A DNA stretch of 36,509 nt, from assembly GCA_001275005.1 (NCBI GenBank), contig JWZX01003355.1, forward strand, positions 1-36,509, in the 5' to 3' direction. The notes below the pieces were generated by a model. That model was not told the DNA's origin. It worked only from the letters and a program-made list of their open reading frames with translations, and did not search any database. Shown piece by piece: positions 3,001 to 36,509 of the stretch. The DNA comes from Chrysochromulina tobinii (Eukaryota; Haptophyta; Prymnesiales; Chrysochromulinaceae). The position numbers were made by a program, and so were the translations under genes. Each line of letters starts with the position of its first letter. Within the stretch, counting starts at the first letter, position 1.

Positions 3001-6000
3001 CTCGTAGCCAAGCACGGGCTCGAAGCTCAGCAGGTTGGCAACCTGCAGGTGGCTTAATGGAACTTGGGCGCCAGTGGGCGCCTGCAGGCCGGCACGATCA
3101 GTAGGCACGTCGAAGAGGAGAAGCAGCTCGGCGCCTGCCATGCGATTGGTAGGCAGCTGCGCGGGCCGCCGGAAGGCACGGGTGTAGTAGCTGCGGATCA
3201 TGGGGGGGGGGCGGCTGCCGAGGTCGCCGGTGAGGTTACATGCGGTGGTCTGTAGAGCCACGGCGCCCATGTACAACGAGGGCGTGATGTGCGGCCGGCC
3301 GGGGAGACCGGTGACGAAGCGGATCTGGCTGCCCACGACGGGCGTGACGAACCTGATGAGGGAGGCAATCCGATGAGTGATGAGGGAGGCAATCCGATGA
3401 GTGATGAGGGAGGCAATCCGGTTAATATGAGGCCATCAGACGCCATCAGACGCCATCAGACGCCTTCAGATGCCATCAGACGCCATCAGACGCAATCAGA
3501 TTATGAGAGGGCGCGACGAACCCTGTGAGGAGCCAGTGCGTCGAGACGACGCGCGTGGGGCCGGCGGCGATCGCTGCGGGCGGAAGGCTGGGGGCGGCGA
3601 GGCTGGGCAGGCGGGGCGGTGGCGCCGTGAAAGGGGGCGGCATGTGCACGTTCGCGTTGCTGCTCGCATTGTGCGCAGACGTCGTGTAGGTGCCGACGGG
3701 CGCGCAGTGGGCCCAACTGAGCGTGACGTTGCTCGCATTCGACAGAGTTGCGTTGCTTCCGTTGGTCGGACTGGTCGGCAGCAGAATGGGAGTGCATTCG
3801 AGGGATGCATTCGACGTAGTGGTCGCATTGGGGCTCAGCAGGGCGGGGGGGGCGGCGGGGGGGCTGCTCCGCATGGCGCTGCTCTCCCCAAGCGTGCGCA
3901 CGCGGCCGCCTGTGGGGTTGATGATGGTCACGACGAAAGTGAAGTCGTTGACCCACACGCCGCTGTAGTCGGCACCGAGCGGATGCGAAAAGTCGAAGAG
4001 CTCATCGACCAACGGCTTGCCCCCGGACATGGCGCACGGCCAGCTCGGGTTCCCAAATCGGGACATGCATACCTCGGCGGCGGGGCGCGCGCGCTCGTCG
4101 AAGGTGATGCTGAGCGTATCTCCCGCGCTGAGCTGCATGTCGCCATTGTCCGGATCGGCAGCGACGAAGGAGACGATGCGTGGCAGAGGGCCGCTCGACA
4201 AGGTCGCGACCGTACGAGACGGCGGCGCGTTGAGCAGCGGGCTCTGCACGTCGCCTTGGACGGCCACCGTCATGCCCAGCTGCACGGGCCACGGGGGCGA
4301 CGCGATGCTCGTAGCGAGCACCTCGAGCGTCGACGAGTCCGTCCAGACGGCGCGCAACTCGTCCCCGACGCGTGAGGGCAGCGCGGGATTGCGAACGTCC
4401 TCTCCCGGCCAGTGGAAGCTGAAGAGCCGATCCAAATATGGGCGAGTGCCCTCATCAAGGGCGCGATTGGTCGCCACGTCGAACTCGATCTCGAAGCGAT
4501 CTCCGACGCCGTAGGACAGGTCGCCCTCATCGGGGTCGGAGGCCTCGAACCGCACGATGCGCGGCGCCGTGCTCGATCCGAAGGAGCCCGTGAGCACCGC
4601 CGAGTCCCCACAGGGCGGTGAGGTGCGCGCCGCGTTGGTGATGTCTCCACACATGCTGGACGTGAACGTCGGGCAGCGCTTCGCGGAGAAGGTGGTGGTG
4701 CCGTCGAGACGAATGCCGTTATTGGACGAGACGTCAGAGACGGTGATCACAAACGTCGAGCTGTCGGCCCACGTGCCGCTGTACGAGTTGCCCAGCTGGC
4801 CCGAGACGGAGAAGAGGGCGTTGACAAAGGCGCGGCCTCCGCTCACGCCCGCGGCCGCATACACGCCGCCCGCGTTCGGATTCGTATAGAGCCCTCCAGC
4901 TTGGTAGTTTCGGTACGTGACGCTGAGCGCGACGTTGAAGGTGATGGTGATGAGATCGCCGTCGCTGTACTCGAGTGCGGAGCTGTCCGGGTCCGAGACG
5001 ACCACCGACACGATCCGCGGCATGTCGAACGAGCCAAAGGTGCCGATCAGCGGCAGCACAGTCGAGGTAGAAGCGGCGGCCGAGGTGCTGCCCGCATTGC
5101 GCACGCGCACCGCGTCGCGCAGTCGGACGGTCGTCGAGCCGTCGAGCACAGGGAGGAGCCCCACCGTCGTGATCGTCACGTCGGTCGTGACAGGCGGCAC
5201 GTAGAGGAAGCGCGCGAACTCGCACTCGCGAGCGGACTCGCCGCGCGTCCGGTCGCAGAGGGTGTTGGGCGTGTCGAACATGTACTCGGCTCGAAGCTTG
5301 TCTGCGTCGAAGCCGTCCCACCAATAGGTACTAGAGGAGGCGGGCTCTAAGGAGGTCTGAGGAATGAACTGGTAGATGCCGCGCAGCGAAATTCTCTCTT
5401 GAGGGAAGCCCACAGCCCTGCTCAGGTTGACCACGGGATCTTGCACGAGGCTCGGCAGATTGAGCCACGGCCGTTGGAGCTGTCCGGGCCCAGGCCCCGC
5501 GGTGGCGGCGGAGGGCTCGAAGGCGATGCTCGCGCCGGTCGTGTCGATGAGTGTGATCACAAAGGTCCACTCGTTGAACCAGGCGCCACTATAGTCCGCA
5601 CCCAGATTGAGGGGCTGGTTGGGGCTGAAGCCTGCGAGATACACAGGCCGACGCGCCAAATCGTACTCAATGTAGCCGTTGCCCACGAATTGGAAGAGAG
5701 AGTCGACGTACGCCTTGTTCCCCGACGGGAAGCGAAGCGGTCCGCTCGGATCCGCATCGGGCAGCGGTGCCACGTAGGCCATGCCCGCGCTCGTTGGCCG
5801 GTCGAGGACGATCGAGATCGTGTCGCCGGCAGTGTAGCCAGCGCCGGCGCCCGCGGCGATCAGCTGGATCGTCTGTGGGTTTGGCTGCCAGACGCCTGTC
5901 AGCTGCGCGGGCTGCCAGTTGCGCTGGAGCGTGCATGCCGGCACGGGCAGCTGGTTCGTCTCCCACTTGTCGCCGACGGGTGCGCCTGAGCCGCCCTCGA

Positions 6001-21000: not shown

Positions 21001-24000
21001 GTCCATCAGGTTGGAGCATGTCTTGGCCGTGTAGTTGAGATTGGTGATGCCGCCGGAGGGGCGCGCCGTCACATTGAGCTCGCCAACGCGCGGTGGGAAG
21101 ATCTGCGACCCTTCCGCGTCGACGATGGTGACCACGAACGTCGAATCGTCCTTCCATTCGCCCGTGTAGTCGGCACCGAGCGGGTGCGAGAACTCGAACA
21201 GAGCGTCGACGAGCGCCTTGCCGCTCAGCGAGCTGCTGCCCAGCGGGTAGGGGACCACCTCGGGCGGGCCGCCCTTGACACCCGCGCCGTTGGCCGGATA
21301 CACGAGCGTCGACGGCTGCTGGTAGTTGCTGTGCGTCACGCCCCGGTTCGTCTGCTGGTCGAAGACGATGGTGAGCACGTCGCCGGACGAGAAGACGGCG
21401 TCTCCATTATTCGGATCGTCGGCGACGAAGCGGATGATCCGCGGCCCGTCGCCCGCCCTTCCAAAGTCGCCTTCCAAACGAGGCAAGCTTGCGAGCGCCG
21501 GCGTGCCATCAGTGAGCATCGTGCTCGCGTCCAGCCGCGCTGCGGAGCCGCTGAGGGTGGGCGCGAGGCAGTAGGGGGTGCCTCGGAACTCTGCCGGGCA
21601 CGAGAGAGACTGCACGCGCACATCGCGACGGAGTGCGACGCGCGTGCCAGAGTCCGCAAAGGCGGTGCCGTAAGGCCTGTAGCTGGGGGCGAGGATCCCT
21701 GGCTGCGGCGCGGCCGAGCCGTTGATGACCGTGACGAGGAAGGTGGAGTCATCGAGCCAGCCGGTCGAGTACTCGTGGAAGAGAGGCTGCACGATGCGAC
21801 TGCCCGACGCGTCGAAAAAGTCGAAGAGACGCGCGAGCTGGGTGTTGAAGAAGCCGTTGCCCGAGCACTGCGACGAGAAGTCACAGTTGAGGACTCCCGA
21901 GTACTCCGCGAAGGCGTTGGCGGCGCGGTCGGTGGGCACATCGAAGCGAAGCGCGATCGTGTCCCCTGCTCCGGGGATGAGGTCGCGGTTGACGAAATCG
22001 GACGCGATCACCTCCACGAGCCGTGGCGGTGTGGGAAAGGTCTCGACGCGCTCGGCGACACCGAGGAGCGCCGCCTCCATGACGAGCAGCGGCGCCGTCT
22101 GCGCCAGGTTCGTCATGTTCGCCTCACGCGCAATCCGTAGCATCGTGTCATACGGCCGCGGCGCGTACTCCGGATCGGGATACGGCTCCGTCACGGTCAC
22201 CACGAACGTCGAGCCGTCGGACCAAGCGCCGCTGTACTGGGCGCCCAGCGGGGCCGAGACGCTGATGAGCGAGTCAACATACTCCTTGCCGCCCGATCCG
22301 CGCTGTGCACAGAAGGGCAGGTTGTTCACAGAGAGGGCCTGCTGCAGGCATCGGCCAGGGAGCACCGCGCGGTCGAATTGCAGCACGAGCTCATCGAAGG
22401 CATCGTAGCTCGCGTTCGCGTTGTCGCGGTCATGTATGAAGAAGCGTAGCAGGGAGGGCGCCGTCTCGTTCGCGCCAAAATCGCCCACGCTCAGCCGGTA
22501 CGATGCACTCGAGAACTCGGACGTGCGCGGCGCGTTCTGCAGCCGGCCGGCGACGGTGACGAGGGCGCCCGAGGAGCCACCCACGCGTGGACCAGTGCCT
22601 GCACCGGTAGGATCGAGGATGGTGACGACAAAGGTGGAAGTGTCGAGCCACGCGCCGCTGTAGTCGGCTCCGAGTGGCTCGGAGAAGGCGAGCGTCGTGT
22701 CCACGAACGCCCTGCCGCCCTCGCGCCTGCCCAAGTCTGTGGGGAGGTCGAACTGGATGGCGAGCGTGTCGTTGCGCGACCACAACGGGTCCTTGAGGTC
22801 CCACGTCTGCGAGTCGTACCGGATGATCGAGGGGGGGGTCATCGTGCCGGGATTGCCCGTCAGCGCCGAAGTGGCGCGGCACCAGCGCGAGCGCTCGTTC
22901 GCGGTCTTGATGTCGCCGGCGACCGAGACTGTGACGGCGCCCAAGACGGCGCCCGGGCTGGACGGCATCGTGTGGCCACTCACGTCGACCATGGTGATGA
23001 GGAAGGTGAGCGGGTCGAGCCAGCGACCGTTATAGCGCGCACCGAGCGACTCGCTGAAGCGGAAGAGCCGATCGACCAGATCGCGATCTCCCGCCTCGGT
23101 TGCGAGCTCGTCGTACCTGATGAGGGAGGCACTCAGAGGTCATTCGAGGCACCCAGAGGTCATTCGAGGCACTCAGAGGCAGTCACGCCAGCTTCTTGTC
23201 GTCGTACCCCTCGACCCTCGAGATAGCGCGATTCGTTTCCGAGTCGAACGTGATCGTGAGTGTGTCGCCGTCCGAGAAGACGACGTCGCGATTGTCAGGG
23301 TCCGCGAGTACCGCAGACAAGATCTTAGGCGCGACCACCCCGGCCTCACCCGTCATCGAGAGGAAGCCCGCGGAGATGGGCGAGGTGCGCGGCGTGTTGC
23401 GAAGGTCTCCTGCAATAGTGAGGGTGGAAGTGAAGCCGCCGCCCCACAAGCAGCGTGCGACCTGCGGCATCGAGGGGAGCTCGGTCAATCCAGATCCCAT
23501 CCAGATCAATCCAGATCCCATCAAGATCAAGGGCAAATCGAGGATAGTCAAGGTCAATCAAAGGGACTCACCTGCGTCATCTCCTGTTGAGAGAGGGGCT
23601 GCGACTCCGACACAAACGCAGCCAAGCCCCTGCCCGTGAGCGTGACACGTGTCCCCCCGCGCTTGGGCCCCGCCTCGGGCGTGATGCCGGAGAAGACGGT
23701 CGGCTGCACGTAGTACGTGTAATCGAGGCCGGTGTCGATGTACACGGCGTCGTCGCTCGAGAGCAGCAGATGCACGTCGCCACTCTGACCGACGGGCGGC
23801 GTGGCGCAGAGGAGCCGCTCCCTGCTCACCTGTGGGGATATGGCGATGGCGCCGTGGTGAGCACTTGCATGCAGGCGTGGCGCAGAGGAGCCGCTCCCTG
23901 CTCACCTGCAGCACCGGCATCACCACCTCGCGCGAGCTGCCGAAGCGGCAGAAGGCGATAGGGCCCGCATCGAAACCAAAGCCGCGGAAGGTGACGAGGG

Positions 24001-27000
24001 TTCCTCCGGTGGTCACACCCCCGGGCGGCCCGCCGTTCACAGTCACCTGGTCGATTCGCAGGCCGTAGTAGCGGAATCGGTACGTCGTGTCCACGTACTG
24101 CTGGGCGTTGAGCGTCACGAGCACGAACGCGGCCTCGGCCTCAGCGATCGCCGTCTGATCATTGCCATATTTGGGTATGGTTGCCATATTTGGGCGAGCG
24201 GCACACGTTCAGTGAGGATCAGAGGCACTCAGGGGCCATCAGAGGGCATCGGAGGCACTCAGAGGGCATATGAGGCCATCAGAGGGCATCGGAGGCCATC
24301 AGAGGGCATCAGAGGGCATCAGAGGGCATCAGAGGGCATCAGAGGGCATCGGAGGGCATCGGAGGGCAGCACGCACCTGATTGGGCGAGCGGCACGTCCA
24401 CCGCTCAGGTAGCAGCTCGATCGGCGGTGTGTCGGCGATGTTATTCGACGTGACGAAGCGGCAGCTCGCAAACTCGGTGTTGCCCCCGAGCCCGTGGAAG
24501 CCCTGCCCAAAGATGCTCATGATGTAATCAGAGGTAATCAGAGAGGTAATCAGAGGTAATCAGAGGACTCACCTGACCAAAGATGGTCATGATGTAATCA
24601 GAGGTAATCAGAGGTAATCAGAGGTAATCAGAGGACTCACCTGCCCAAAGATGGTCATGATGTAATCAGAGGTAATCAGAGAGGTAATCAGAGGTAATCA
24701 GAGGACTCACCTGCCCAAAGATGGTCACCACCGTGCCGCCCGAGAAGACGCCTGCCTGCGGCAGCACCGACTGCACCGAAGGCGGGTTGTAGTACGTGTA
24801 GTTCTGACCCGTCCAGCGCGGATCGCGCCCCGACTCGAGGGCGAAGCCGTTGAGGGCGAGCCAGAGCTGACGCGTATCGGTCAACTTCGTGGGTGGGCTC
24901 TCGCACACGGCGGCATGCCCGCCGCCGAGCGCCGTGGCGCGCGTGATCGTGTAGCGAGGGTTGTACGCGGCGTTCGTCGGCTCGCCGTACTGGCACGAGA
25001 GGTACGCGCCGCGATCGAGCGCGTCGAATCCAGTGCCGACGAGGGTGACGAGGGTACCGCCTGTCCGATGACCGCCCGAAGGGATGATGCGCGCTACGTA
25101 CGGGTTGTCATAGTATTGGAAGTTGAGGCCCGTCGCACCAAAGTCGATGGCGTTGAGCGAGAGGGTGAGGTTGACCGTCTCGGCAGCCCCGATGCGTGCT
25201 GGCGGCGCGAGGCACACGATGCGCCGATTCGAAAGCTCGAGGGGCTGCGACTCAGGCGGCGGCAGGCTGAGGGTCTGTGCCAGGCTCGCGGCCAGCATGT
25301 CCACGATCGGGGCCTGCCAACGGCAGCGCACGAGGCTCGACGAGAATGCAAGGAAGCCCGAGCCCACGATCGTGACTGCCGTGCCCCCTCCCTTGGGACC
25401 ACCCACGGGGGACAGCCGGACGAAATCCTCGTTGGATGAAACCCCGGCGCCACTCCCCTTGGGGCGGGGCTGCTGATAGTACTCGAACGTGAAGCCGGCG
25501 ATCGGCTCGAAGTCGGTCTGCGCGCCATTGAAGGAGAGGGCGATGCTCACGACGGCGGGCTGTGCCGCCGGCGGCGTCGTGCACACGATCATATGGCGCT
25601 CGAGGACCTCGGCTGCCACGAAGTTGACGAGCCCAAACCGACACAACGCGTTCCGCGGGTCGGTCGAGAAGACGTCAAACGGACCTCCTAGGATGGTGAC
25701 CGAGGTGCCTCCGCGCGTCGGACCGCCTGTCGGCTCGCTTGCCGTGTAGTTCGTCGGCTGCTCATAGTACAAGAAGGAGACGTTGAGCGCGTACAAGTCG
25801 ATCGCGTTGAGTGCGAGCGACATGTTGCGCCGAGCCGTCGTCGACTGGGGGAACGAGGCGACGACGATGCGATTGGGCGTGAGCACGCTCGGTGTCGTCA
25901 GGTTCGTCAATGACGTGTCGCCCCACCCGACGCGCACGTCACTCACGTTGATGGAGGCGTACGCTTTGAAGCCACTCCCGCCCAGAGTAACGACGGTGCC
26001 GCCGTCGACCCGCCCGCCCGTTGGGTGGATGGACGTCACCGTGAACGGCTGCACGAAGTACGTGAAGTTCAGCGCCGTGTCGGGCGTCACGGCCACATAG
26101 TCGCGGTCGTTGAGCGCGATCTCAAGGCCCACGACGGTGGCTTGCGTGAACGGCTGAGCGGCTGTCCTGCACCAGAGCTGCGTGTCGTCCAGGTACTGCG
26201 GGATGGTCACCTCCGTCCCATCCCATCGGCATCGCGCGTTCCCCGCCTGCGCGCCCCCCAGTCAACGGCCGCATGCAATTAGAGTGATCATCAGCGGTCA
26301 TCAGTGGTCATCAGTGGCCATCAGCGGCCATCCGAGCTCATCCGCGCTCATCAGCGCCACTCACCTGCGCGCCCCACCGGGCGAATGCCGCGAGGCCCTC
26401 GCCATGGATCGTGATCACCGAGCCGCCGAGGGTGGGGCCCGCCGTCACGGGGGTCAGATGCGTGAGGCGCGTCGGCTGCACGAAGTAGGCATACTCGAGG
26501 CCGTTGGTGTGGTAGTCTTGGCCGTTGAGGGCGATCTCCATGTCGGTCACCACCGGCGACGAACGCACCGGCGAGCGGCACACGACGCGCATGGGCGTGA
26601 GCACCGTCGGTGTCTGGAAGCTCACCAGAGGCGTCACGGCGTCCTCCGCCTCGGTCACATTGGTAGACAGGCAGGGGCGCAGCTCGACATTCGAAGTGCT
26701 CAGAGGCGCCGAGCCGTCGAGGTAGGGAGGTGCACTGCCCAGCCGACGCAGGCGCGTCTGCCCCGGACGGATGGAGATGCGCAGCCCCGAGCCTGATGAC
26801 GGGAGCCATCAGATAGGATCAGAGGCCATCAGAGGCCCTCCGAGGCCCTCCGAGGCCATCAGAGGCCATCAGAGGCCATCAGAGGCACTCAGAGGCCATC
26901 AGAGGCCATCAGAGGCCATCAGAGGCACTCGGAGGCACTCGGAGGCCATCAGAGGCCATCAGAGGCACTCGGAGGCACTCAGAGGTGACGAACCGCCTTG

Positions 27001-28495
27001 GAGTAGATTGGTAGGCGCGGCCTGCGAGTCGCCGCCCGACACGGCGCCTGGCGTGACGCGTGCGTTGATGGCCTTGAGGGTGAGGCGACGCGTGTCGAGC
27101 CACTCGCCCGTGTACGTATCAGCCAAGCGCACAGGCCCGCCTTGCCCCCTGCTCGAGAAGACGAAGAGTTCGTCCACCTGGCGCGAGAGCCGCAGGCGAG
27201 GGTATGAGGGCGATCGTGTGTGAATGAGGGCGATCGTGTGTGAATGAGGGCGATCGTGTGTGAATGAGGGCGATCGTGTGTGAATGAGGGCGATCGTGTG
27301 TGAATGAGGGCGATCGTGTGTGAATGAGGGCGATCGTGTGTGAATGAGGGCGATCGTGTGTGAATGAGGGCGATCGTGTGTGAATGAGGCCCATGCAGCT
27401 TCGATCCAAGGTCATTCGCGCCCCGCCCAGGCATGACTCCGAGCCACGCCTCGGAGCCATGTAACGTACCTGTGGGGAGTGAGGGCGTCGTGATGAGCAC
27501 TTGCATGCCGAGCCACGCCTCGGAGCCGTGTAACGTACCTGTGGGGAGTGAGGGCGTCGTGATGAGCACTTGCATGCCGAGCCACGCCTCGGAGCCGTGT
27601 AACGTACCTGTTCACCGGTGAGTTGGCGCGAGAAGCCGTTGAAGGCGGTGGCCGCGAGTTGGATGCCGTTCGTTGGTATATCGAAGATGACCGAGAGAGG
27701 CACCGCGCCTGTGAGTGCATCGGCTTCGCACCCGTCCGGCTGCGAGCCCACGCGGAACGCTACGATCGAAGGCTTGTCGGTGAACCGGCACCGGATCAGT
27801 GTGTCCGCGAGGTCGATGTGGGACTCGTTCAGGTAGCCTCCCGTGAAGCCGATGCCCTCGATCACGACCTCGGTACCGCCGGTGACGGGCCCGCCCGTGA
27901 TGGCGGCGTTGGTGAAGTTTGCGGGTGCCGGGTAGTAAATGTACGTGAACCCCGTGTCCATCAGGTTCGGCTCAATGAACGTCGTCCCTACTGTCGTCCC
28001 AGCGAGCGTTATGTAGCGCAGCGAAAACCACAGGCTGACTAGGCCCGACACGCGCGGGTACGACGGGCACTTGAGCATATCGACGCGGCTGATGCTGGCC
28101 GGGACGTCAAAGGTGGCGCGCAGCTCGGGCGTCACGGTCACCTCGGTAAGCAGCTGGGTCGCCTCCGTAAAGTATTCGGGCGGCACCTCGGGCAACGACG
28201 CCTCATCGTCGCTCCAGCCCGACCGGTCGGCCTGCTGTCGCGCAAGGATGGCCTGCTCCCAGTCCTGCGGATTGCCCCAGTGGCATTTCACGCGGTTGAG
28301 CACGCCGGTGCTGATCCGGCTGAACTCGCGGCCGACGATCGTCACGGTCGTGCCGCCCTGCACCGGCCCGCCGGTCGGGTGGGCCGAGTAGACGGGTGGC
28401 GCTTTCTCGTTATGGCTCGTGCTCCGGCTCCCAGGAGGGAGTATGAGCAGCAGCGGCAGCAGCAGCAGCGCTGTGGGAGCACGCCTGCGCGCCAT
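1..28495 (-). CDS. Giant secreted TIG/Ig-like repeat protein (14 exons in window, C-terminus missing)
   Basis: Exons in order of transcription: 28495-27608, 27177-26994, 26792-26365, 26246-24711, 24502-24377, 24154-23906, 23829-23572, 23461-23208, 23116-19046, 18890-18200, 18113-17139, 17065-8162, 8021-3522, 3352-1. Every junction keeps phase if one extra T at 8749-8752 is discounted, giving at least 8805 residues and an open end at position 1. I chose the ATG at 28495 because it opens a signal peptide (MARRRAP, then a run of Leu, then PPGSRS); a GTG 23 codons upstream has no such context. About 10 TIG domains (GG...GGT.VT..G.GF, then CRFG/CRWG and LNG.DF...YY.P) are followed by about 32 Ig-like modules, 4-5 more TIG domains and about 11 more modules. 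No membrane segment lies inside the window. The protein is probably secreted or on the cell surface, as an adhesive or structural fibre (inference from TIG/Ig-like folds). I recognise no named orthologue. Confidence 0.9.
610..722 (-). other. Cys-rich insert with CDDGGFGAEFTRCPYGSDC motif
   Basis: The frame gives CPETCAHASDGTCDDGG, FGAEFTRCPYGSDCTDCG and PR. C..C..ASDG.CDDGG.G.E...C..G.DC.DCG.R is a compact Cys/Asp motif that I remember from many haptophyte and other algal secreted proteins. It probably forms a small disulfide and metal-bound knot. It interrupts the loop after the last strand of one module. It is one of the reasons I place the organism among the algae. Confidence 0.6.
2722..2893 (-). 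other. Cys-rich insert with GDGCDCACGAHDPDC motif
   Basis: Within a module of the giant protein the reading frame gives WRCGFATYGTGDGCDCACG, then AHDPDCDD, a spacer, and CMPGQVCVAPGVCSG. The GDGCDC.CG..DPDC pattern is one I remember recurring in extracellular proteins of algae and some bacteria; the family name is not known to me. The eight or more Cys in about 57 residues imply disulfides and hence an extracellular location. Confidence 0.6.
3353..3521 (-). other. Intron 13 of the giant gene (169 nt), family B
   Basis: Donor CACAGG|GTTCGTCGCG and acceptor CCTCATCAG|GTTCGTCACG, phase 2, giving HWLLTG-FVTPVVG. A 14-nt stretch is shared with one mismatch (3340-3353 and 3509-3522). The array has two parts: GCGTCTGATG units, then three copies of a 22-nt unit containing GATTGCCTCCCTCATCA. 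Confidence 0.85.
6010..8021 (-). other. Second TIG/IPT cluster with a possible SEA-like segment
   Basis: The start of this exon resumes TIG-type sequence, with GGSTLGGTIITLHG, GGPLQGGTVVHLEG and GGPSSGGTLITVYA starts and a degenerate GPSSGGTRWVM copy; a fifth, YAPQAGPIM, is broken. LNG.DF and YY.P motifs follow most of them. Between about 7005 and 7560 lies a different segment: a strand reading RRVTFRVNLGIDQVPAGS, a helical stretch FEAALRQDLAASL, then LQVVRIVSES and a Ser/Gly-rich linker. That order resembles SEA-like domains of algal extracellular proteins, but this is only an impression. Having TIG domains both before and after a long module block suggests the gene grew by segmental duplication or fusion. 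Confidence 0.7.
8022..8161 (-). other. Intron 12 of the giant gene (140 nt), family B
   Basis: Donor GGCCA|GTACGC and acceptor CTCCTCAG|GTACATG, phase 2, joining DYSGQ to YMTTPLF and so an Ig-like module to the second TIG cluster. The array includes CCTCTGATGG, CCCTGATTGC and CCCTGATGAC. Only GTAC is shared between the two ends. A stop in the intron ends the frame running in from the upstream exon. Confidence 0.78.
8747..8752 (-). other. Apparent +1 frameshift (extra T) in the giant gene
   Basis: On the minus strand the module reads GDSLFIYF and then meets TGA, while the expected continuation DRLTDRGG lies one base further on. The sequence is TAC TTT TGA CC; with three T instead of four the frame is continuous. 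The exon (17065-8162) is 8904 nt, and only 8903 nt fits the phases of its two flanking introns. A homopolymer miscall is the simplest reading. UUU-UGA-C is also a plausible +1 slip site. Confidence 0.8.
17066..17138 (-). other. Intron 11 of the giant gene (73 nt), family B, 17-nt duplication
   Basis: Donor TGCACG|GTGCGC and acceptor CCTCATCAG|GTGCGC, phase 0, joining NNTCT to VRPRDALVIRN. GTGCGCCCGCGAGACGC is identical at 17138-17122 and 17065-17049. The filler is about 20 nt of other sequence plus CTCTGATTGC and CTCTGATGAC units. Confidence 0.92.
18114..18199 (-). other. Intron 10 of the giant gene (86 nt), diverged 27-nt duplication
   Basis: Donor CCGATG|GTGCGC and acceptor CATCATCAG|GTGCGC, phase 0, giving CYAGPM-VRSASIRDPDNAD. 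The 27 nt after the donor (18199-18173) match the 27 nt after the acceptor (18113-18087) at 24 positions, so this copy has aged. The intron ends in a short GCTGATTG array. Confidence 0.9.
18891..19045 (-). other. Intron 9 of the giant gene (155 nt), family B
   Basis: Donor AATCG|GTACCTGATTACC and acceptor CTGATGACAG|GTGGGACC, phase 2, joining RFRNR to WDLLGPYTP. The array is made of CCTGATGACCTCC units, a variant without CTCTGAT. No convincing flanking duplication. Confidence 0.8.
23117..23207 (-). other. Intron 8 of the giant gene (91 nt), family B, 9-nt duplication
   Basis: Donor GAGGG|GTACGACGA and acceptor CCTCATCAG|GTACGACGA, phase 2, giving RVEG-YDELATEAGD. GTACGACGA is present at both ends. 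The body alternates CCTCTGAGTG and CCTCGAATGA units. Confidence 0.85.
23462..23571 (-). other. Intron 7 of the giant gene (110 nt)
   Basis: Donor ACGCAG|GTGAGT and acceptor GCCGCAG|GTCGCA, phase 0, joining EMTQ to VARCLWGG. It separates the TIG cluster from the first Ig-like module. Its body holds short GATCTGGATTGATCTGGATG repeats rather than family A or B. Confidence 0.85.
23830..23873 (-). mobile_element. Family A introner-like unit, copy 1 (intron 6 of the giant gene)
   Basis: In the transcribed sense it runs TGCATGCAAGTGCTCACCAC, then GGCGCC, a short variable pyrimidine stretch and CCCCACAG. It is flanked by a perfect 32-nt duplication. It carries its own acceptor and a CTCAC that could be a branch point. 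Confidence 0.85.
23830..23905 (-). other. Intron 6 of the giant gene (76 nt), family A with perfect 32-nt duplication
   Basis: Donor CTGCAG|GTGAGC and acceptor CCCACAG|GTGAGC, phase 0. The 32 nt starting GTGAGCAGGGAGCGG occur identically at 23905-23874 (intronic, giving the donor) and 23829-23798 (exonic, coding VSRERLLCAT). The remaining 44 nt are a family A unit that brings the acceptor. Confidence 0.95.
24155..24376 (-). other. Intron 5 of the giant gene (222 nt), family B, 15-nt duplication
   Basis: Donor AATCAG|GTGCGT and acceptor GATCAG|ACGGCG, phase 0, giving CRSPNQ-TAIAEAEAAF. The body is an array of GCCCTCTGAT and GCCCTCCGAT units. A 15-nt piece of the upstream exon end (plus-strand TTGGGCGAGCGGCAC, 24381-24395) recurs inside the intron at 24190-24204, about 35 nt before the acceptor. 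Next to it a 14-nt piece, TTGCCATATTTGGG, is repeated twice. Confidence 0.85.
24503..24710 (-). repeat. Intron 4 of the giant gene: three complete intron units in tandem
   Basis: Units at 24710-24641, 24640-24573 and 24572-24503 (70, 68 and 70 nt) each begin GTGAGTCCTCTGATTACC and end ATCTTTGG(G/T)CAG. The unit end copies the end of the upstream exon, where CATCTTTGGGCAG encodes the TIG motif TIFGQ. Splicing out all 208 nt joins TIFGQ to GFHGLGG in phase 0, a perfect TIG sequence. Each internal boundary is CAG|GTGAGT, so it can act as 3' and 5' splice site at once. Confidence 0.9.
26247..26364 (-). other. Intron 3 of the giant gene (118 nt), family B, 12-nt flanking duplication
   Basis: Donor GCGCAG|GTGAGT and acceptor GGGCGCAG|GCGGGG, phase 0, restoring the TIG motif RWGAQ-AGNARCRWDG. 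The last exonic bases before the donor recur at the acceptor: plus-strand CCTGCGCGCCCC at 26246-26257 and 26364-26375. The interior carries GCTGATGA and GCTGATGG-type units. Confidence 0.85.
26793..26993 (-). other. Intron 2 of the giant gene (201 nt), family B
   Basis: Donor GGCG|GTTCGT and acceptor CGTCATCAG|GCTCGG, phase 1, giving LQGGSGLRIS across the joint. The body is a tandem array of CCTCTGATGG and CCTCTGAGTG units in the transcribed sense. I see no clear flanking exon duplication here. Confidence 0.8.
27204..27389 (-). repeat. 20-nt tandem satellite (9 copies) inside intron 1
   Basis: On the plus strand the unit is ATGAGGGCGATCGTGTGTGA, repeated nine times without visible variation. 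It contains the palindrome CGATCG. In the transcribed sense it is pyrimidine-rich (TTCACACACGATCGCCCTCA). It ends about 25 nt before the intron's acceptor. Confidence 0.95.
27470..27507 (-). mobile_element. Family A introner-like unit, copy 2 (intron 1 of the giant gene)
   Basis: A 38-nt unit with CATGCAAGTGCTCATCACG, a GACGCC variant of the core and CTCCCCACAG at the end. It is identical to copy 3, 69 nt away, so the pair arose by tandem duplication or by repeated insertion at one site. Confidence 0.85.
27539..27576 (-). mobile_element. Family A introner-like unit, copy 3 (intron 1 of the giant gene)
   Basis: Identical to copy 2. It is flanked on both sides by the 31-nt GTACGT segment that supplies the donor of intron 1. 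Confidence 0.85.
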
Positions 28496-28832
28496 GGTGG
28501 GGCCTCGGTGAGCGCTCCGCTTTGCTTGGAAAAGGCACAAATAAGCGTTGAAGTGGGCGGTCAAAGTTTGCAGAGTGCGGGGTGCTTTGGTAGCATGTGG
28601 TAGCCGGCGGCCCGGTGACTCGTACTGAATTCTTTGACACTACTGTACGATTTCCCTGAAGAAAGTAAGAGCCGAGCCGTGTGGAACAATTGAAATGTCC
28701 ACGTACTCGTGTACTGTTGTACATTGTGTCTTGGAACTTACCCCGGAATTTGCCGGTTGCAACACGGACACAGTTTCGTCAGAAGCGCCGCGTCAAGCAC
28801 ATCGAGGTCCTGTGCGACCTCCGAGAAAGCTC
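28496..28832. promoter_or_regulatory. Divergent intergenic region between the giant gene and the prolyl-tRNA synthetase gene
   Basis: These 337 nt separate two start codons that face away from each other, so promoters and 5' untranslated regions of both genes must lie here. The sequence is richer in A and T than its surroundings. I see no clear TATA box or repeat. The synthetase frame is open back to an ATG at 28695, so the protein-coding part could begin there instead. Confidence 0.5.
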
Positions 28833-31085
<2,253 letters not shown>

Positions 31086-31530
31086 GCACGCGTTGGAGCA
31101 CGAGGAGAGCGAGAGAGATTTGTAACCGACCAAGCTACCCTACCAATTGGCGGGACAGCCATACTCTCACGAGGAGAGCGAGCGCTCTACCGCTCCTTGA
31201 TTGCTTACCGCTGAAGACAACGACCTATCTAACGCCATCGCCGCAGCGTTCCAGAAAGAAGAAACAGCCGTGCGTGTATCTATAGATAACGAGTGGAGGT
31301 GCCGGGGCGCAGGGGGCGAGCGTTCTCATGCGATGCAGATAGAGTTGCAGATTCCGCTTGCCGATGCGTCGCGTGTTGGACGGGAAGTTCGATGCTACTG
31401 TATACAACAAAGCGTCACTTAATCTAAGACACACCCGGGTCCGGGGGCCGCGGCCGGGCCGGCCACGACGGTTGTCAGGCGCGGGGCGTCTCGAGACCGG
31501 GTTGCACTAGAGTGCTAGAGTGCTGACACG
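31086..31530. other. Convergent intergenic region without a recognised gene
   Basis: These 445 nt lie between the stop codons of two genes that point at each other, so they hold both 3' untranslated regions. CACGAGGAGAGCGAG occurs twice, near 31098 and 31169. A very G/C-rich stretch lies at about 31436-31475. I see no AATAAA and no reading frame I would support. Confidence 0.6.
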
Positions 31531-34500
31531 TCACCGAAAGCCTAACCCCAACCGCGTGCCTGGCAGCTGCGGGGACTCGTTCCTGGGCGGCGGCGAGTTC
31601 CGAGCGTTCTGCTGGTTGAGCTGGTCCCACGCGTTGACCGGGATCTCCTTGGCCGTGGCATAGCGAATGTGCATTGTGGTGGCGCCGAGCCCGACGGCGC
31701 GCGCCGCGCGCATCTCGACTGTCTGGACTTCGTGCCAGTTCGCCTTCCGCGCGGACGGGTGATGGACCTCCGGCTGCACGCGAGCGCTGTACTGACCGGG
31801 CCCCTTGACAGGGGTCCCATTGGGTAGGATGTAATGCGGCTCCGAGCGCGCGCTACTCGAGGGCGGCGGGTGCGGCGCCGCGTCTCGCAGCCCTACCGGT
31901 AGGCTCGACGCGAAGGCGCCGTCGCGAGCGCTCGCGCTGCCGCCGCCTTTGGCTGTACGCCGGTGACGCGGCGAGCTGCCCCCGAGGATGGCGGCCGCCG
32001 CGGCGCCATCGGAGGGCGCGTGGGGGGGCATGCCCGCAATCTCCGCCTCGGGAGATCCGCGTCCGGAGTGGCGGCTCGACGGGAGCGGCGGGAGCGCTGC
32101 ATCGGGCGCGCCGTGCGCCGCATAGGCTGCCGAGGGCGGATGGGCCGTCGCCGCCGGCGCCTGCTGCCGCTGCTGGTGCTGCTGGTGCTGCTGGTGCTGC
32201 TGGTGCTGCTGGTGCTGGTACTGGTGCTTCTGCCCGGGTGGCGAGGCCGATCGAGGGCGCACTAAGGCTGCCTTATATAGGAGGCCAGCGAGGGTGCCCT
32301 CGCGCTTCCCCTCGAGCTTCGCGGCCGCGTCAGAGCGCACCCCGGCCTGCGCTGCCAGGTGCACCCGCAGCAGGTGGAGCGAAGCGAGGGCGGACTGCAC
32401 CAAATGAGAGCGCTCAGCGGCGGCCGCCACTTGCGTGCCCTCGAGCTTCTCCGTCACGTGCTGTAAGTTCAGCTCGATGCGCTGAAAGTCCGCTTTGCGC
32501 GCCTTGAGCTCCTTGAGCATGTCTTGCCGTCGAGCCTCGAGGCGTGCCTCGTTCGCCCTCGCGCTCTTAAGAGAGTTCTCGGATTCCTGTGCCTTGCCGT
32601 GCGCCGAGCGCACCTCCGCCACCGAGGCCGCCACGACTGCCTTGTAACGGTCGAGGAGGATGCGTAACCGATCGGCGACGGGCGCATTCGGCGGCTCGAG
32701 CAGCGTATGGATGCTCATCAGCCAATCGGGCAGCGGCTCGCCGGAGCGGCCCGTGTAGTACCTGATGAGGGAGGCAATCAGAGGTCATCAGAGGTCATCA
32801 GCCAATCGGGCAGCGGCTCGCCGGAGCGGCCCGTGTAGTACCAGCTATCCGAATGAGGCACGATCGCGGCGCCTTTGCTCGCCGTCTCGCCGGCGCGTTG
32901 GCGCAGCTCGAGCAGCTCCTCAATCGCCTCGCGCACGACGCCGTGGACGTCGTCGAGGTGCTGTGTGGAGCGCACCGCCTTCGAAACGGCCTCACCGAGC
33001 TGCGCCCCGAGGCGCTCGGCAGCCGCGACCGCCTGCGCCGCCCTCTCTCGATACCGCCGCTCCTCCTTGAGCTCATCGTCGGCGTCGTCGAGCGTGTGGC
33101 ACAGCGCAATCTGCGCCACCTGACGTGCGGCGAGGTAGCCCTTGAGCTTGGCGACCTCGCTCGCATGCACCTCCTTGAGCATCGCGAGATCGGCGAGATG
33201 GCGCTGGCTCGAGCGCCGCCATCCGCCGCCGCATGCGCGTCCTCGATCGTGCGAAGGGTCGCGCGCGTCGCCTCGTGCGCCGCCGCCTCCTGTGCCGTCG
33301 CCGCTGCCGCCGCCGCCGCCGCCGCGTGAGCAGCCTCGAGCTCGAGCTGGAGCGTCGCGACCTGCGCCCCGTGCGCGCTGATCTGCGCGCTGACCTGCGC
33401 ATGTAGCGCTTCCAGCTCGGCCGTGTGGTCCACCGGTGGCGGCTTGGCGCGCTCCGCCTCGAGCTCGTCGCTCACCTGATGAGGGAGGCACTCGATCTAA
33501 TTAGGGATGCAATCAAAGGCAAACAAAGGCCATCAAATGGCCTCGAGCTCGTCGCTCACCTGGCGCAATCTCGCCTCGAGCTCCGAGATATGGAGCTCAA
33601 GCGCACGCTGGCCCGCCGCGCCCTGCTCGAGCGCTGTGCGCTGCTCCTCCACGAGCGCCTCGAGCTCGCGCAGCCGCGCCGCCGCCGCCTCGCGCCTCGC
33701 CACCTCTTCCGGATCCTCCTCCCGCACCTGTGGGGAGGAGAGGGCGCCGTGGTGAGTACATGCATGCTGGGAGAGGGAGACACGGATCCTCCTCCCGCAC
33801 CGTTTCCACAACGAGCGGCGCGTCGAGCGAGGGGTCCTCGGGCGGCTCGGGTGGTTCGACGACGCCCTCGAGCTCCTGTGAGCCGCGCAGCCGGCGCGCG
33901 AGCCGGCGCAACTCCCACCGCAGCTCCTTGGCCACCCGTTGCGTCGCCGCGTCCACGTCCGCGATCACCTGTGGGGAAGGGTGAGGCGCCATGGTGAGCA
34001 CTTGCATGGCACCAGCCGCAGTAGGGATCGTCCACGATCACCTCGGAGCGAAGAATCAAGTGCACTCAAGTGCAATCAAGTGCAATCAAGTGCAATCAAG
34101 TGCAATCAAGTGCAATCACCTCGGAGCGGAGCTGTCGCGTCGCCTCCTCCGCGGCGGCCGAACGCTCAGCGAGTGCGATCGCCTCGGCCTCCTTGGTGCC
34201 CAAGCGCGCGAGCGCCTCGTCGAGCTGGGCGCGCACCTGTGGGGAAGGCGAGGCGCCGTGGTGAGCACATGCATGCTGGCCGAGGCGCCGCGCGTCGAGC
34301 TGGGCGCGCACGGCGTCGGTCTCGGCACGCAGATTCGCGGCCGTCGCCATCGCCTCGAGCGCCTCGATCTCGTGCTGCGCCGCCAGCGCGGCAGACGCCT
34401 TCTCCGCCGCCGCCGCCGCGGACGCTGCCTTGGCGAGCTCGTCCTTGAGGACTTTCTCGCGCTGCTCGGCCTTGACGGCGCGCTCCTTCTGCAGCTCGAA

Positions 34501-35610: not shown

Positions 35611-36509
35611 ACGAACGTCATGCAGCTCTAACACAAATCCACTCCGGTCCTTCACCGCGTCTCGCACCGCTTCTTTCCCTGCATCTTCCATGCTGTTGTA
35701 CTTGAGGTTGAGCTTGGTCAGGACCGCGTTGACCTTGAGCACCTCTGCAATCGCCTTGGCACCGTCATCCCTGATGGAGTTGGTACCGAGGTTGAGGGTG
35801 GTCAACACCGCGTTGACCTTCAGCGCCTCCGCGATCGCCTTGGCACCGTCGTCGCCGATGGAGTTGTTGATTAAGTTCAGGTTGGTCAGGACCGCGTTGA
35901 CCTTCAGCGCCTCCGAGATCGCGATGGCTCCCTCGCCCCCGATGTAGTTGCCTCCAAGGGCGAGGGTGGTCACCACCGCATTGACCTTCAGCGCCTCTGC
36001 GATCGCCTTGGCACCGTCGTCGCGGATGAGGTTTGTAGGGAGGACCAGACTGATCAGGACTGCCATGAAATGCAGGTCAGACCCGATGAGGATGGCGTCG
36101 GCGGATTGGAGCTTCTGGCCATGCAAATTGGCCTTCGTCTGGTCGCGCGTCATGCCCGAGAGCATGATGCCCTTCTCCATACCGATTTTGGCAAGCATCG
36201 TGGCCGACTCCACGTCGAGGCCGTTCTTGAGCAAGTTGCAGCTTTTGAGCGCCGAGCTGAACTTGAGCAGATCAGAGAGGACGAGGGCGCCGGAGACCCC
36301 AACGCCTCTCAGGTCCAGCTTTGTCAGCGCGTCCGCGCGTAGCTTCTTGATTGGGATCTCCGAGAAGACCTCGAGAGATGCGCTGCTGAGGACTGCTGTC
36401 GCGAGTTGCTGCGCCCCCTCTCCGTCGATGTTGTTGTTGGCAACGGAGAGATTTTCAAGCACCGGGCTGAGCTGCATCAGCTCGGCCAGCACAATGCCCT
36501 CGGTCGCCC
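35596..36509 (-). CDS. Leucine-rich-repeat protein of the NLRC3/ribonuclease-inhibitor type (N-terminus missing)
   Basis: The frame is open at the window's right edge, so the start lies outside; about 304 residues are present and no intron is needed. The end carries four 28-residue repeats of the form LTTLNLG.NSIRDDGAKAIAEALKVNAV, the signature of the ribonuclease-inhibitor-like LRR class. More divergent repeats precede them (LENLSVANNNIDGEGAQQLA, LTKLDLRGVGVSGALVLSDLL, LKSCNLLKNGLDVESATMLA). Such solenoids bind other proteins and are abundant in algal genomes, usually cytosolic. The stop codon lies inside the last copy of the palindrome array. Specific partners cannot be told from the sequence. 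Confidence 0.85.
   Translation of the reverse strand, partial: ATEGIVLAELMQLSPVLENLSVANNNIDGEGAQQLATAVLSSASLEVFSEIPIKKLRADALTKLDLRGVGVSGALVLSDLLKFSSALKSCNLLKNGLDVESATMLAKIGMEKGIMLSGMTRDQTKANLHGQKLQSADAILIGSDLHFMAVLISLVLPTNLIRDDGAKAIAEALKVNAVVTTLALGGNYIGGEGAIAISEALKVNAVLTNLNLINNSIGDDGAKAIAEALKVNAVLTTLNLGTNSIRDDGAKAIAEVLKVNAVLTKLNLKYNSMEDAGKEAVRDAVKDRSGFVLELHDVRCVPA
35680..36015 (-). repeat. 84-nt tandem repeats within the LRR gene
   Basis: Four units of exactly 84 nt, each with a CCGCGTTGACCTTCAGCGCC-like block on the plus strand, encode the last four leucine-rich repeats. They are much more alike at the DNA level than the repeats before them, so they arose recently or are kept alike by gene conversion. 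Confidence 0.85.

Follow-up and report, generated by a model that had tools for sequence, protein, structure and literature searches.

A Candidate Introner Family That Carries Half an Intron in the Haptophyte Chrysochromulina tobinii

The genome of Chrysochromulina tobinii (Haptophyta) appears to contain an introner-type family, i.e., a sequence that multiplies and, in doing so, converts positions within exons into spliceosomal introns. We give this reading as a whole a probability of about three in four. In the main form of the family (type I), the element brings a branch-point-like core, pyrimidines and CCCCACAG, and the donor is the start of an exon duplication. The starting point was a window of 36,509 nucleotides (assembly GCA_001275005.1, contig JWZX01003355.1, positions 1-36,509, forward strand), in which an initial annotation had described introner-like units. 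That description is supported by copy number, by duplications that begin exactly at the splice junction, by codon scores and by one filled/empty pair.

Copy number and copies in the window

Genome-wide counts were made on the 53-Mb haptophyte assembly. The 25-base core GCATGCAAGTGCTCACCACGGCGCC has 2,196 matches with at most three mismatches, compared to 0 for the control, and the size of the family is approximately 2,200 copies. A 17-base core has 3,374 matches with at most two mismatches versus 66 for the reversed pattern, which exceeds the hundreds of hits that had been predicted. Exact type I sequences occur at 386 places. As in introner families, near-identical introns are found at unrelated positions in many genes. 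The seven copies in the window are members of this large genome-wide family. A convergence of ordinary strong splice signals that happen to look alike is scarcely credible: CTCAC and CCCCACAG are indeed splice-like, but the GCATGC and GGCGCC edges of the element are not known splice signals, the core count stands against a control of zero, and other introns in the window end in CTCATCAG.

A core search of the window gave 10 matches at up to three mismatches (shuffled mean 0.58), three of which (8477, 16764, and 31915) have no family context. All seven copies reported initially are present, in three host genes, but at six intron sites instead of five. The host genes are an IPT/TIG-domain gene (Pfam match PF01833), a prolyl-tRNA synthetase gene, and a coiled-coil-like gene, for which a scan of two frames gave no Pfam match. 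The coding strand carries all seven copies; for the coiled-coil-like gene this strand was assigned from open frames only. An Rfam scan of the window returned nothing at the gathering score.

The 76-nt intron of the IPT/TIG gene (23830..23905, minus strand) consists of a 32-nt duplication with the donor GTGAGC (23874-23905) and the element (23830-23873); the second copy of the duplication (23798-23829, minus strand) is exon. Over the 180 nt tested, frame 0 is free of stops both in the spliced and in the retained version, and retention would shift the frame. The site at 27470..27607 (minus strand) holds two tandem type I units of 69 nt each (27470-27538 and 27539-27607), each made of a 31-nt duplication and an element with the core GTGCTCATCACGACGCC; the exon copy of the duplication, with one mismatch, is at 27439-27469 (minus strand). 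The 86-nt intron of the prolyl-tRNA synthetase gene (30252..30337, plus strand) has an exact core and no clear duplication; this copy is older or rearranged. With this intron excised in silico, the alignment of the synthetase to 1h4q is ungapped at the junction.

The remaining three sites are type I introns on the minus strand. The first (33728..33800, 73 nt) has an 18-nt duplication, a 16-nt filler, and the element; 34 of its bases, comprising the end of its own duplication, the filler and GCATGCATG, are found again at contig C789. The second (33969..34041, 73 nt) has a 13-nt duplication with one mismatch and adjoins a 10-nt-repeat intron (array 34054-34118). The third (34237..34311, 75 nt) has a 19-nt duplication, a 17-nt filler, and the element. 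Thus the duplication range of 18-32 nt given initially fits four of the six sites, the exceptions being the 13-nt site and 30252.

Anatomy of the element and predicted excision

The stretches used contain 150 core matches at up to two mismatches. Two at the edges were discarded, and an acceptor together with a unique context was present in 117. For copies lacking a YACAG acceptor, the listing was restricted to those preceded by GCATGC-like letters (29 rows); these rows include one redundant copy, in L046, and at least five copies with an AG acceptor of another kind. Strong duplications were seen in 74 copies, and 52 of them start at the junction. Leaving out five with lengths of 100 or more gives 47 clean copies. 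Three of these run into a tandem neighbor, which inflates the maximum to 50, and lengths were therefore taken from the other 44.

The element has a sharp left edge: in the 117 copies, the information content is 0.09 bits just before GCATGC and 1.21 bits at its first base, and there is almost no conservation to the left of it. We therefore dropped a freely ragged left end as the main picture. The shared element that had been described as a 40-nt unit is real, though it is not a fixed 40-mer and is modular around the sharp-edged 25-base core. The RNA fold z-scores (-0.11, -1.90, and -1.50 for three introns, 0.26 for the core) give no clear support to a structured RNA.

Of the 117 copies, 50 have a duplication whose first base falls exactly at the acceptor junction, versus one of 1,120 mismatched pairs; in 22 of the 74 copies with a strong duplication, the aligned start misses the junction by 1 to 26 bases. 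The duplication begins with G in all 47 clean copies and with GT in 42, and AG precedes it in 25. Its length is 15-41 nt (median 25) in the 44 clean non-tandem copies, which were not sampled at random from the family because the stretches were picked for exact cores on low-numbered contigs and supplemented with the window. In the same 44 copies, duplication length is inversely related to filler length (rho -0.73), and the introns are 63-89 nt long. The duplication makes up about a third of the new intron.

Exon duplications around clean copies, and the AG before 25 of 47 of them, would also be produced by tandem duplication of AGGT-containing exon pieces whose intron interiors were later homogenised. 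We consider this very improbable, since 40-60 nt of non-exon sequence common to unrelated genes lie between the duplicates, and since in the filled/empty pair the insert and one duplicate differ together. In that pair, C608 (filled) has a 50-nt insert and a 25-nt duplication relative to L031 (empty), and the frame is unchanged after excision; the 75-nt difference keeps the frame whether it is removed or not. The two are homologous over only about 375 bases and therefore may be paralogues, and the polarity is not proven because a 25-base repeat can also delete an insert. An all-against-all comparison of the fetched stretches (hits longer than 150 bases) turned up repeat arrays and a single redundant pair of contigs, but no filled/empty pair. 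L031 was the only relative in viral contigs, in a search that may omit records close to the window. Neither an intron of duplicated exon only, as left by tandem genomic duplication, nor reverse splicing of whole introns, in which the whole intron moves and no target is duplicated, agrees with these copies.

Excision was assessed with a codon model built from the synthetase alone. Without retraining, sense is the top-scoring strand for the spliced flanks of 39 of the 47 clean copies, and antisense for those of eight. Where both flanks are sense, the frame is continuous after excision in 20 of 28 copies versus nine of 28 if the intron is retained; in eight of 28 it is not kept after excision. 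A retrained model gave 42 of 47 for sense orientation and 29 of 36 (spliced) against 12 of 36 (retained) for the frame, but we prefer the figures without retraining because retraining on sense-scoring flanks is partly circular. As judged from sequence, most codon scores agree with a sense orientation and with exact excision, and the copies are probably spliced in RNA.

Mirrored forms and possible routes of copying

In a mirrored form (type II), the core is joined to a donor module, GTACGTTGAT..., and the acceptor is borrowed from the exon duplication. There are also core-only inserts, which carry no acceptor; one array of them is probably antisense, on weak indications. Thus two generalisations of the initial annotation, that copies are always in the sense of the host gene and always bring an acceptor, hold in the window but not genome-wide. 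For sense orientation, which is typical of introners, this array is a probable exception.

The 10-nt-repeat families show both anatomies. A mirrored intron in the prolyl-tRNA synthetase gene (29724..29844, plus strand) carries the donor within the element, and the acceptor, CAG, forms the end of its 27-nt exon duplication. Two type I introns on the minus strand have duplications of 47 nt (32762..32841, ending in CCTCCCTCATCAG) and about 20 nt (33476..33559). Two patterns of these families had no match in viral contigs.

The copies record some of their history. Some of them carry part of the exon duplication of another copy, and close relatives share a stretch above chance. Some contain the 3' portion of a different intron, with an identical tract in the case of L032, as would be expected if the 3' end of intron RNA, once excised, were reverse-transcribed at a nicked exon. 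Such target-primed retro-insertion predicts that copies always end at CAG on the 3' side, are truncated on the 5' side, and have variable duplications. Type I fits this SINE-like, non-LTR pattern: copies end at the splice site, their left ends vary, and so does the duplication length. The genome also has 26 matches to reverse-transcriptase domains, 22 of them over the cut-off. However, neither type II nor core-only inserts end at a splice site (both stop near GGCGCC), the left edge of conservation is sharp and not sloping, and no tail is seen on the copies. The probably antisense array weighs slightly against this route too, and an RNA route does not require the local preference of relatives. 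We regard retro-insertion as rather unlikely.

Defined edges, thousands of copies, and insertion without splicing could also point to a non-autonomous transposon moved by a putative transposase with unusually long staggered cuts. DNA transposons usually make fixed short duplications, but here the length is variable. Neither type I, type II, nor the core has a terminal inverted repeat above what shuffling gives (best end pairing 5/12, reached by 468-695 of 1,000 shuffles), and one copy carries the flank of another. A transposon thus seems improbable, more so than retro-insertion.

In the introner reading that we prefer, the mobile part would be the 25-base core, with its branch-point-like CTCAC, together with either the pyrimidine tract and CCCCACAG (type I) or the donor module (type II). 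A copy of an existing introner, sometimes a nearby one, would enter an exon at a staggered break, and filling-in would duplicate some 15-40 exon bases. The duplicate would provide the missing splice site, so that the coding sequence is intact again once the intron is excised. Selection would purge most insertions that lack such a fit, and the long duplications would be the ones that give sufficient space between donor and branch point. That the copying itself takes place at the DNA level is a tentative view, to which we give slightly less than even odds. One difficulty is that the sharp 25-base core exceeds what random break repair would need.

More speculatively, a general host process may need only half an intron, and the several sequence families could be its products and not several transposons. 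A copied fragment with a branch point and one splice site would be patched into a staggered exon break, the duplication would give the other site, and copies would spread preferentially to neighboring exons. This would cover the GCATGC core, the 10-nt repeats ending in CTCATCAG, and the donor-bearing forms.

Comparison with known systems and meaning

Parts of four published accounts allow a comparison. The introners in the survey of Gozashti et al. 2022 (PMC9860276), like the tobinii family, have many copies inside genes, carry one splice site and take the other from the target duplication. The Chrysochromulina sp. family in that survey is similar in having no inverted repeats, and it carries the donor and borrows the acceptor. 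However, the duplications in the survey are 3-9 bp long (4 bp in Chrysochromulina), compared to 15-41 nt here. Introner elements of Amoebophrya (PMC7789003) are likewise repeated introns with direct repeats at their boundaries, but these repeats are of 3-5 nt and are accompanied by inverted repeats of 8-20 nt, unlike in tobinii. In Daphnia (PMC4202315), new canonical GT-AG introns from staggered breaks also lie between direct repeats of exon; the 33 exon-adjacent repeats described are 4-12 bp, whereas the tobinii repeats are longer and their inserts belong to a large family. Splice sites also come from duplicated exon in tandem genomic duplication with AGGT (PMC3443670), but there the intron is duplicated exon only, with no shared non-exon element between the duplicates. 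By their behavior, as read from sequence, the tobinii elements are introners with much longer duplications than the published ones compared here, as far as these parts of the accounts go, and with a half-intron anatomy.

The origin of introns is an old question, and here an element of about 40 bases seems to make new introns upon landing. According to the part of the survey used, most introner families outside ascomycetes bear some mark of DNA transposition, and where target duplications are described they are short (PMC9860276). In tobinii, one core is found both in copies that lack the donor and in copies that lack the acceptor. Since some copies record their source copy, the copying route can be tested by tracing the donor sequence carried along. 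In the part used, the survey kept only cases in which similarity starts no farther than five exon or ten intron bases from each of the two boundaries (PMC9860276). Type I copies fail this filter because their 5' half is private exon sequence, and the half-intron class could therefore be more common than reported.

Family size and the copies in the window

The searched assembly comprises 53.15 Mb in 2,253 contigs, the window being contig C2196. A genome-wide core search of the kind called for in the initial annotation gave 3,374 matches to a 17-base core at up to two mismatches, against 66 for the reversed pattern. The 25-base form GCATGCAAGTGCTCACCACGGCGCC has 2,196 matches at up to three mismatches (control 0), and the exact core followed by CACAGGT 4-30 bases on is found 386 times (control 0). 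By hand count, 66 of the 100 first-listed exact cores also appear in the latter list. These counts include some duplicates because the assembly contains redundant contigs: C101 and C235 (fetched stretches L046 and L035) are 99.8% identical across 4.5 kb and are thus redundant or allelic. As counts of repeats, they may also be lower bounds.

All seven window copies were found at the positions first reported, in three host genes and each on the coding strand (judged from open frames only in the third gene), but they occupy six intron sites rather than five. The exon duplication ascribed to these sites is present except at the copy at 30252, which has no clear one. The hosts are an IPT/TIG-domain gene, a prolyl-tRNA synthetase gene (29192-31085, forward strand, four introns) and a coiled-coil-like gene with no Pfam match in two scanned frames. 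The spliced synthetase is a 465-residue protein. In the listed 120 of its 7,997 relatives, the top organism-named entry is from Prymnesium parvum (75% identity), and others reach 85%. We regard the host as a haptophyte close to Prymnesiales. The synthetase frame appears broken immediately upstream of 29192, and translation was started downstream of the break. Elsewhere in the window, 35704-36028 holds about 3.9 copies of an 84-base repeat that looks leucine-rich-repeat-like by eye.

Anatomy and predicted splicing of type I copies

Type I copies consist of the core, a pyrimidine stretch and their own acceptor, with the donor coming from the exon duplication. In 117 acceptor-bearing copies the left edge is sharp, with information rising from 0.09 bits directly before GCATGC to 1.21 bits at its opening G. 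In this sample, which was selected by core, the core is near-invariant; the pyrimidine stretch is variable and TCCCCACAG is conserved. We take the branch point to be probably the A of CTCAC, reading it from the general consensus. The single U2 RNA match in the genome indicates that the major-spliceosome U2 is present.

The duplication starts exactly at the acceptor junction in 50 of the 117 copies, versus 1 of 1,120 mismatched pairings of the post-acceptor exon with the upstream sequence of another copy. In 22 of 74 copies with a strong duplication it starts off the junction, by 1 to 26 bases in the alignment. Its first base is G in all 47 clean copies (GT in 42, GC in 3, GA and GG in one each), and AG directly precedes it in 25 of them. 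When copies running into a tandem neighbour are excluded, 44 clean copies have duplications of 15-41 bases (median 25) in introns of 63-89 bases (median 77). In the same copies the duplication length is anti-correlated with that of the filler, i.e., the stretch between duplication and core (rho -0.73), and their sum is less variable than either alone. We read this as a minimum donor-to-branch-point distance, so that short duplications would persist only with filler; part of the anti-correlation may come from old, diverged duplications being counted as filler.

Frame and homology provide indirect evidence from which exact removal of the copies as introns is predicted. With a codon model trained on the prolyl-tRNA synthetase only, the sense strand scores best for the spliced flanks in 39 of 47 copies, and where both flanks are sense the frame is intact after excision in 20 of 28 copies and on retention in 9 of 28, the chance level. 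Retraining on the flanks, which is partly circular, gives 42/47 sense copies and an intact frame in 29/36 excised and 12/36 retained. Intron lengths modulo 3 are 0, 1 and 2 in 14, 13 and 20 copies, and thus 33 of 47 introns would shift the frame if retained. With 30252-30337 excised, the synthetase aligns to the solved enzyme 1h4q without a gap at the junction.

One site could be compared in filled and empty forms. In contig C608, GTGCGAGCTCGTGGCGAGCGTTACC is followed by 50 bases, CTGCATGCATGCAAGTGCTCACGACGGCGCCCGCACCCCTCTCCCCACAG, and then by a second copy of the initial 25 bases with one change. L031, a 4,554-base IMG/VR contig (3300027760_000958) whose last 375 bases match C608, has the 25 bases once. 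With the insert excised, C608 is in the same frame as L031 with 3 mismatches in 190 bases, and both share an adjacent family copy. The similarity ends about 80 bases to the left, and L031 may therefore be a paralogue; its single 25-mer may also result from a repeat-to-repeat deletion and not be the original empty state. L031 is filed as viral; parts of its last 375 bases are 97-98% identical to DNA of this alga, and its first 4.2 kb have no match among the 40 scored of 79 candidates.

Mirrored, core-only and other inserts

Twenty-nine listed inserts lack the YACAG acceptor, and at least five of these have an AG acceptor of some other form. In a subset the insert brings its own donor and the duplication after it ends in AG, which mirrors type I (type II). 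Examples in fetched stretches are L044 7595 (donor GTACGTTGATTGCCACCGATGACCTGCC..., 30-nt duplication), L044 6965 (donor GTACGTCGATTGCATGC..., 19-nt duplication), L051 2991, in which AG is absent from the second duplication copy, and L039 8385, with its own donor. The donor module has 149 genome matches at up to three mismatches versus 0 for the control, tallied without regard to core presence. Core-only inserts between duplications are found at L037 8995 and, in a coding region, at L039 2054-2191, where an insert with a 35-base duplication has been amplified to three 60-base units. In each of four adjacent L039 pieces the opposite strand has the best codon score, but the margin is 0.1 in one and the score itself is negative in another, which weakly suggests that this array is antisense. 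Given the mirrored and core-only inserts, insertion seems to be independent of splicing, with selection probably retaining the inserts that splice.

A direct-repeat survey of 270 kb, including the redundant L046, also revealed 10-nt-repeat families (ending in CTGATTGCCTCCCTCATCAG and variants) that form introns of type I geometry, mostly 64-118 nt, and of type II geometry, e.g., the prolyl-tRNA synthetase intron 29724-29844. Of its 1,060 repeats, 64 were classed as type I and 61 as type II, an uncontrolled list consisting partly of repeats unrelated to introns. Tandem arrays of 10- or 20-nt units in the window (27204-27389, 26818-26985, 24218-24368 and 34054-34118), one of them with 9.3 perfect copies of a 20-nt unit, resemble intron interiors, some with exon duplications at their ends.

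Proposed copying of existing introners and relation to published families

The window copy 33728-33800 and a copy in contig C789 have unrelated host exons. The C789 insert starts with GGAGGATCCG, ten bases with which the window copy's own duplication of exon sequence ends, and continues with the same filler; the 34-base string common to both occurs nowhere else at up to three mismatches. Similarly, in L032 the insert at 3177 repeats 14 bases of the exon-derived half of the copy at 5531 (one mismatch) and an identical tract. A less clear case is L036 2525 to 3748, with about 9 exon-derived bases plus filler and a one-base difference in the donor's own exon copy. New inserts thus arise, in at least some cases, by copying of the 3' portion of an intron already present. 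Left fillers are shared at a score of at least 7 by 38 pairs, tandem pairs counted, versus a shuffled mean of 1.0. Among 97 copies left after removal of related exons, fillers are shared by 5 of 158 pairs from one fetched stretch versus 12 of 4,467 other pairs (reached by 1 of 2,000 label shuffles), and near-identical tracts by 9 of 158 versus 35 of 4,467 (0 of 2,000). Copying in this sample thus shows a local bias.

We favour a mechanism in which an existing introner would be copied into a staggered exon break, the fill-in of which would create the exon duplication. The chief rival, insertion of reverse-transcribed intron RNA, accounts for why type I has a fixed 3' end, and 22 of 26 reverse-transcriptase matches in the genome exceed the cut-off as candidate enzymes, but it does not explain where type II and core-only inserts end. 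Reverse-transcriptase domain matches lie in C2236, C1050, C1358 and other contigs, many in long open frames. Insertion by a transposase is possible.

In Gozashti et al. 2022 (PMC9860276), introner duplications are described as 3-9 bp and similarity near both intron ends is required, a criterion that type I copies fail by construction. The Chrysochromulina family described there carries a donor and is a plausible relative of type II. Exon-adjacent repeats of Daphnia introns are 4-12 bp (PMC4202315), in contrast to 15-41 here, and Amoebophrya introners have inverted repeats (PMC7789003), whereas at the element ends of the present family there are none above shuffled expectation. Titles and abstract openings among the matches listed contained no published description of the family, most subscription journals and all preprints being outside this scope.

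The family is a real, large introner-type family, possibly recently active. Its unusual features are the length of the duplications, the half-intron anatomy, a two-way modularity and a memory of the donor.
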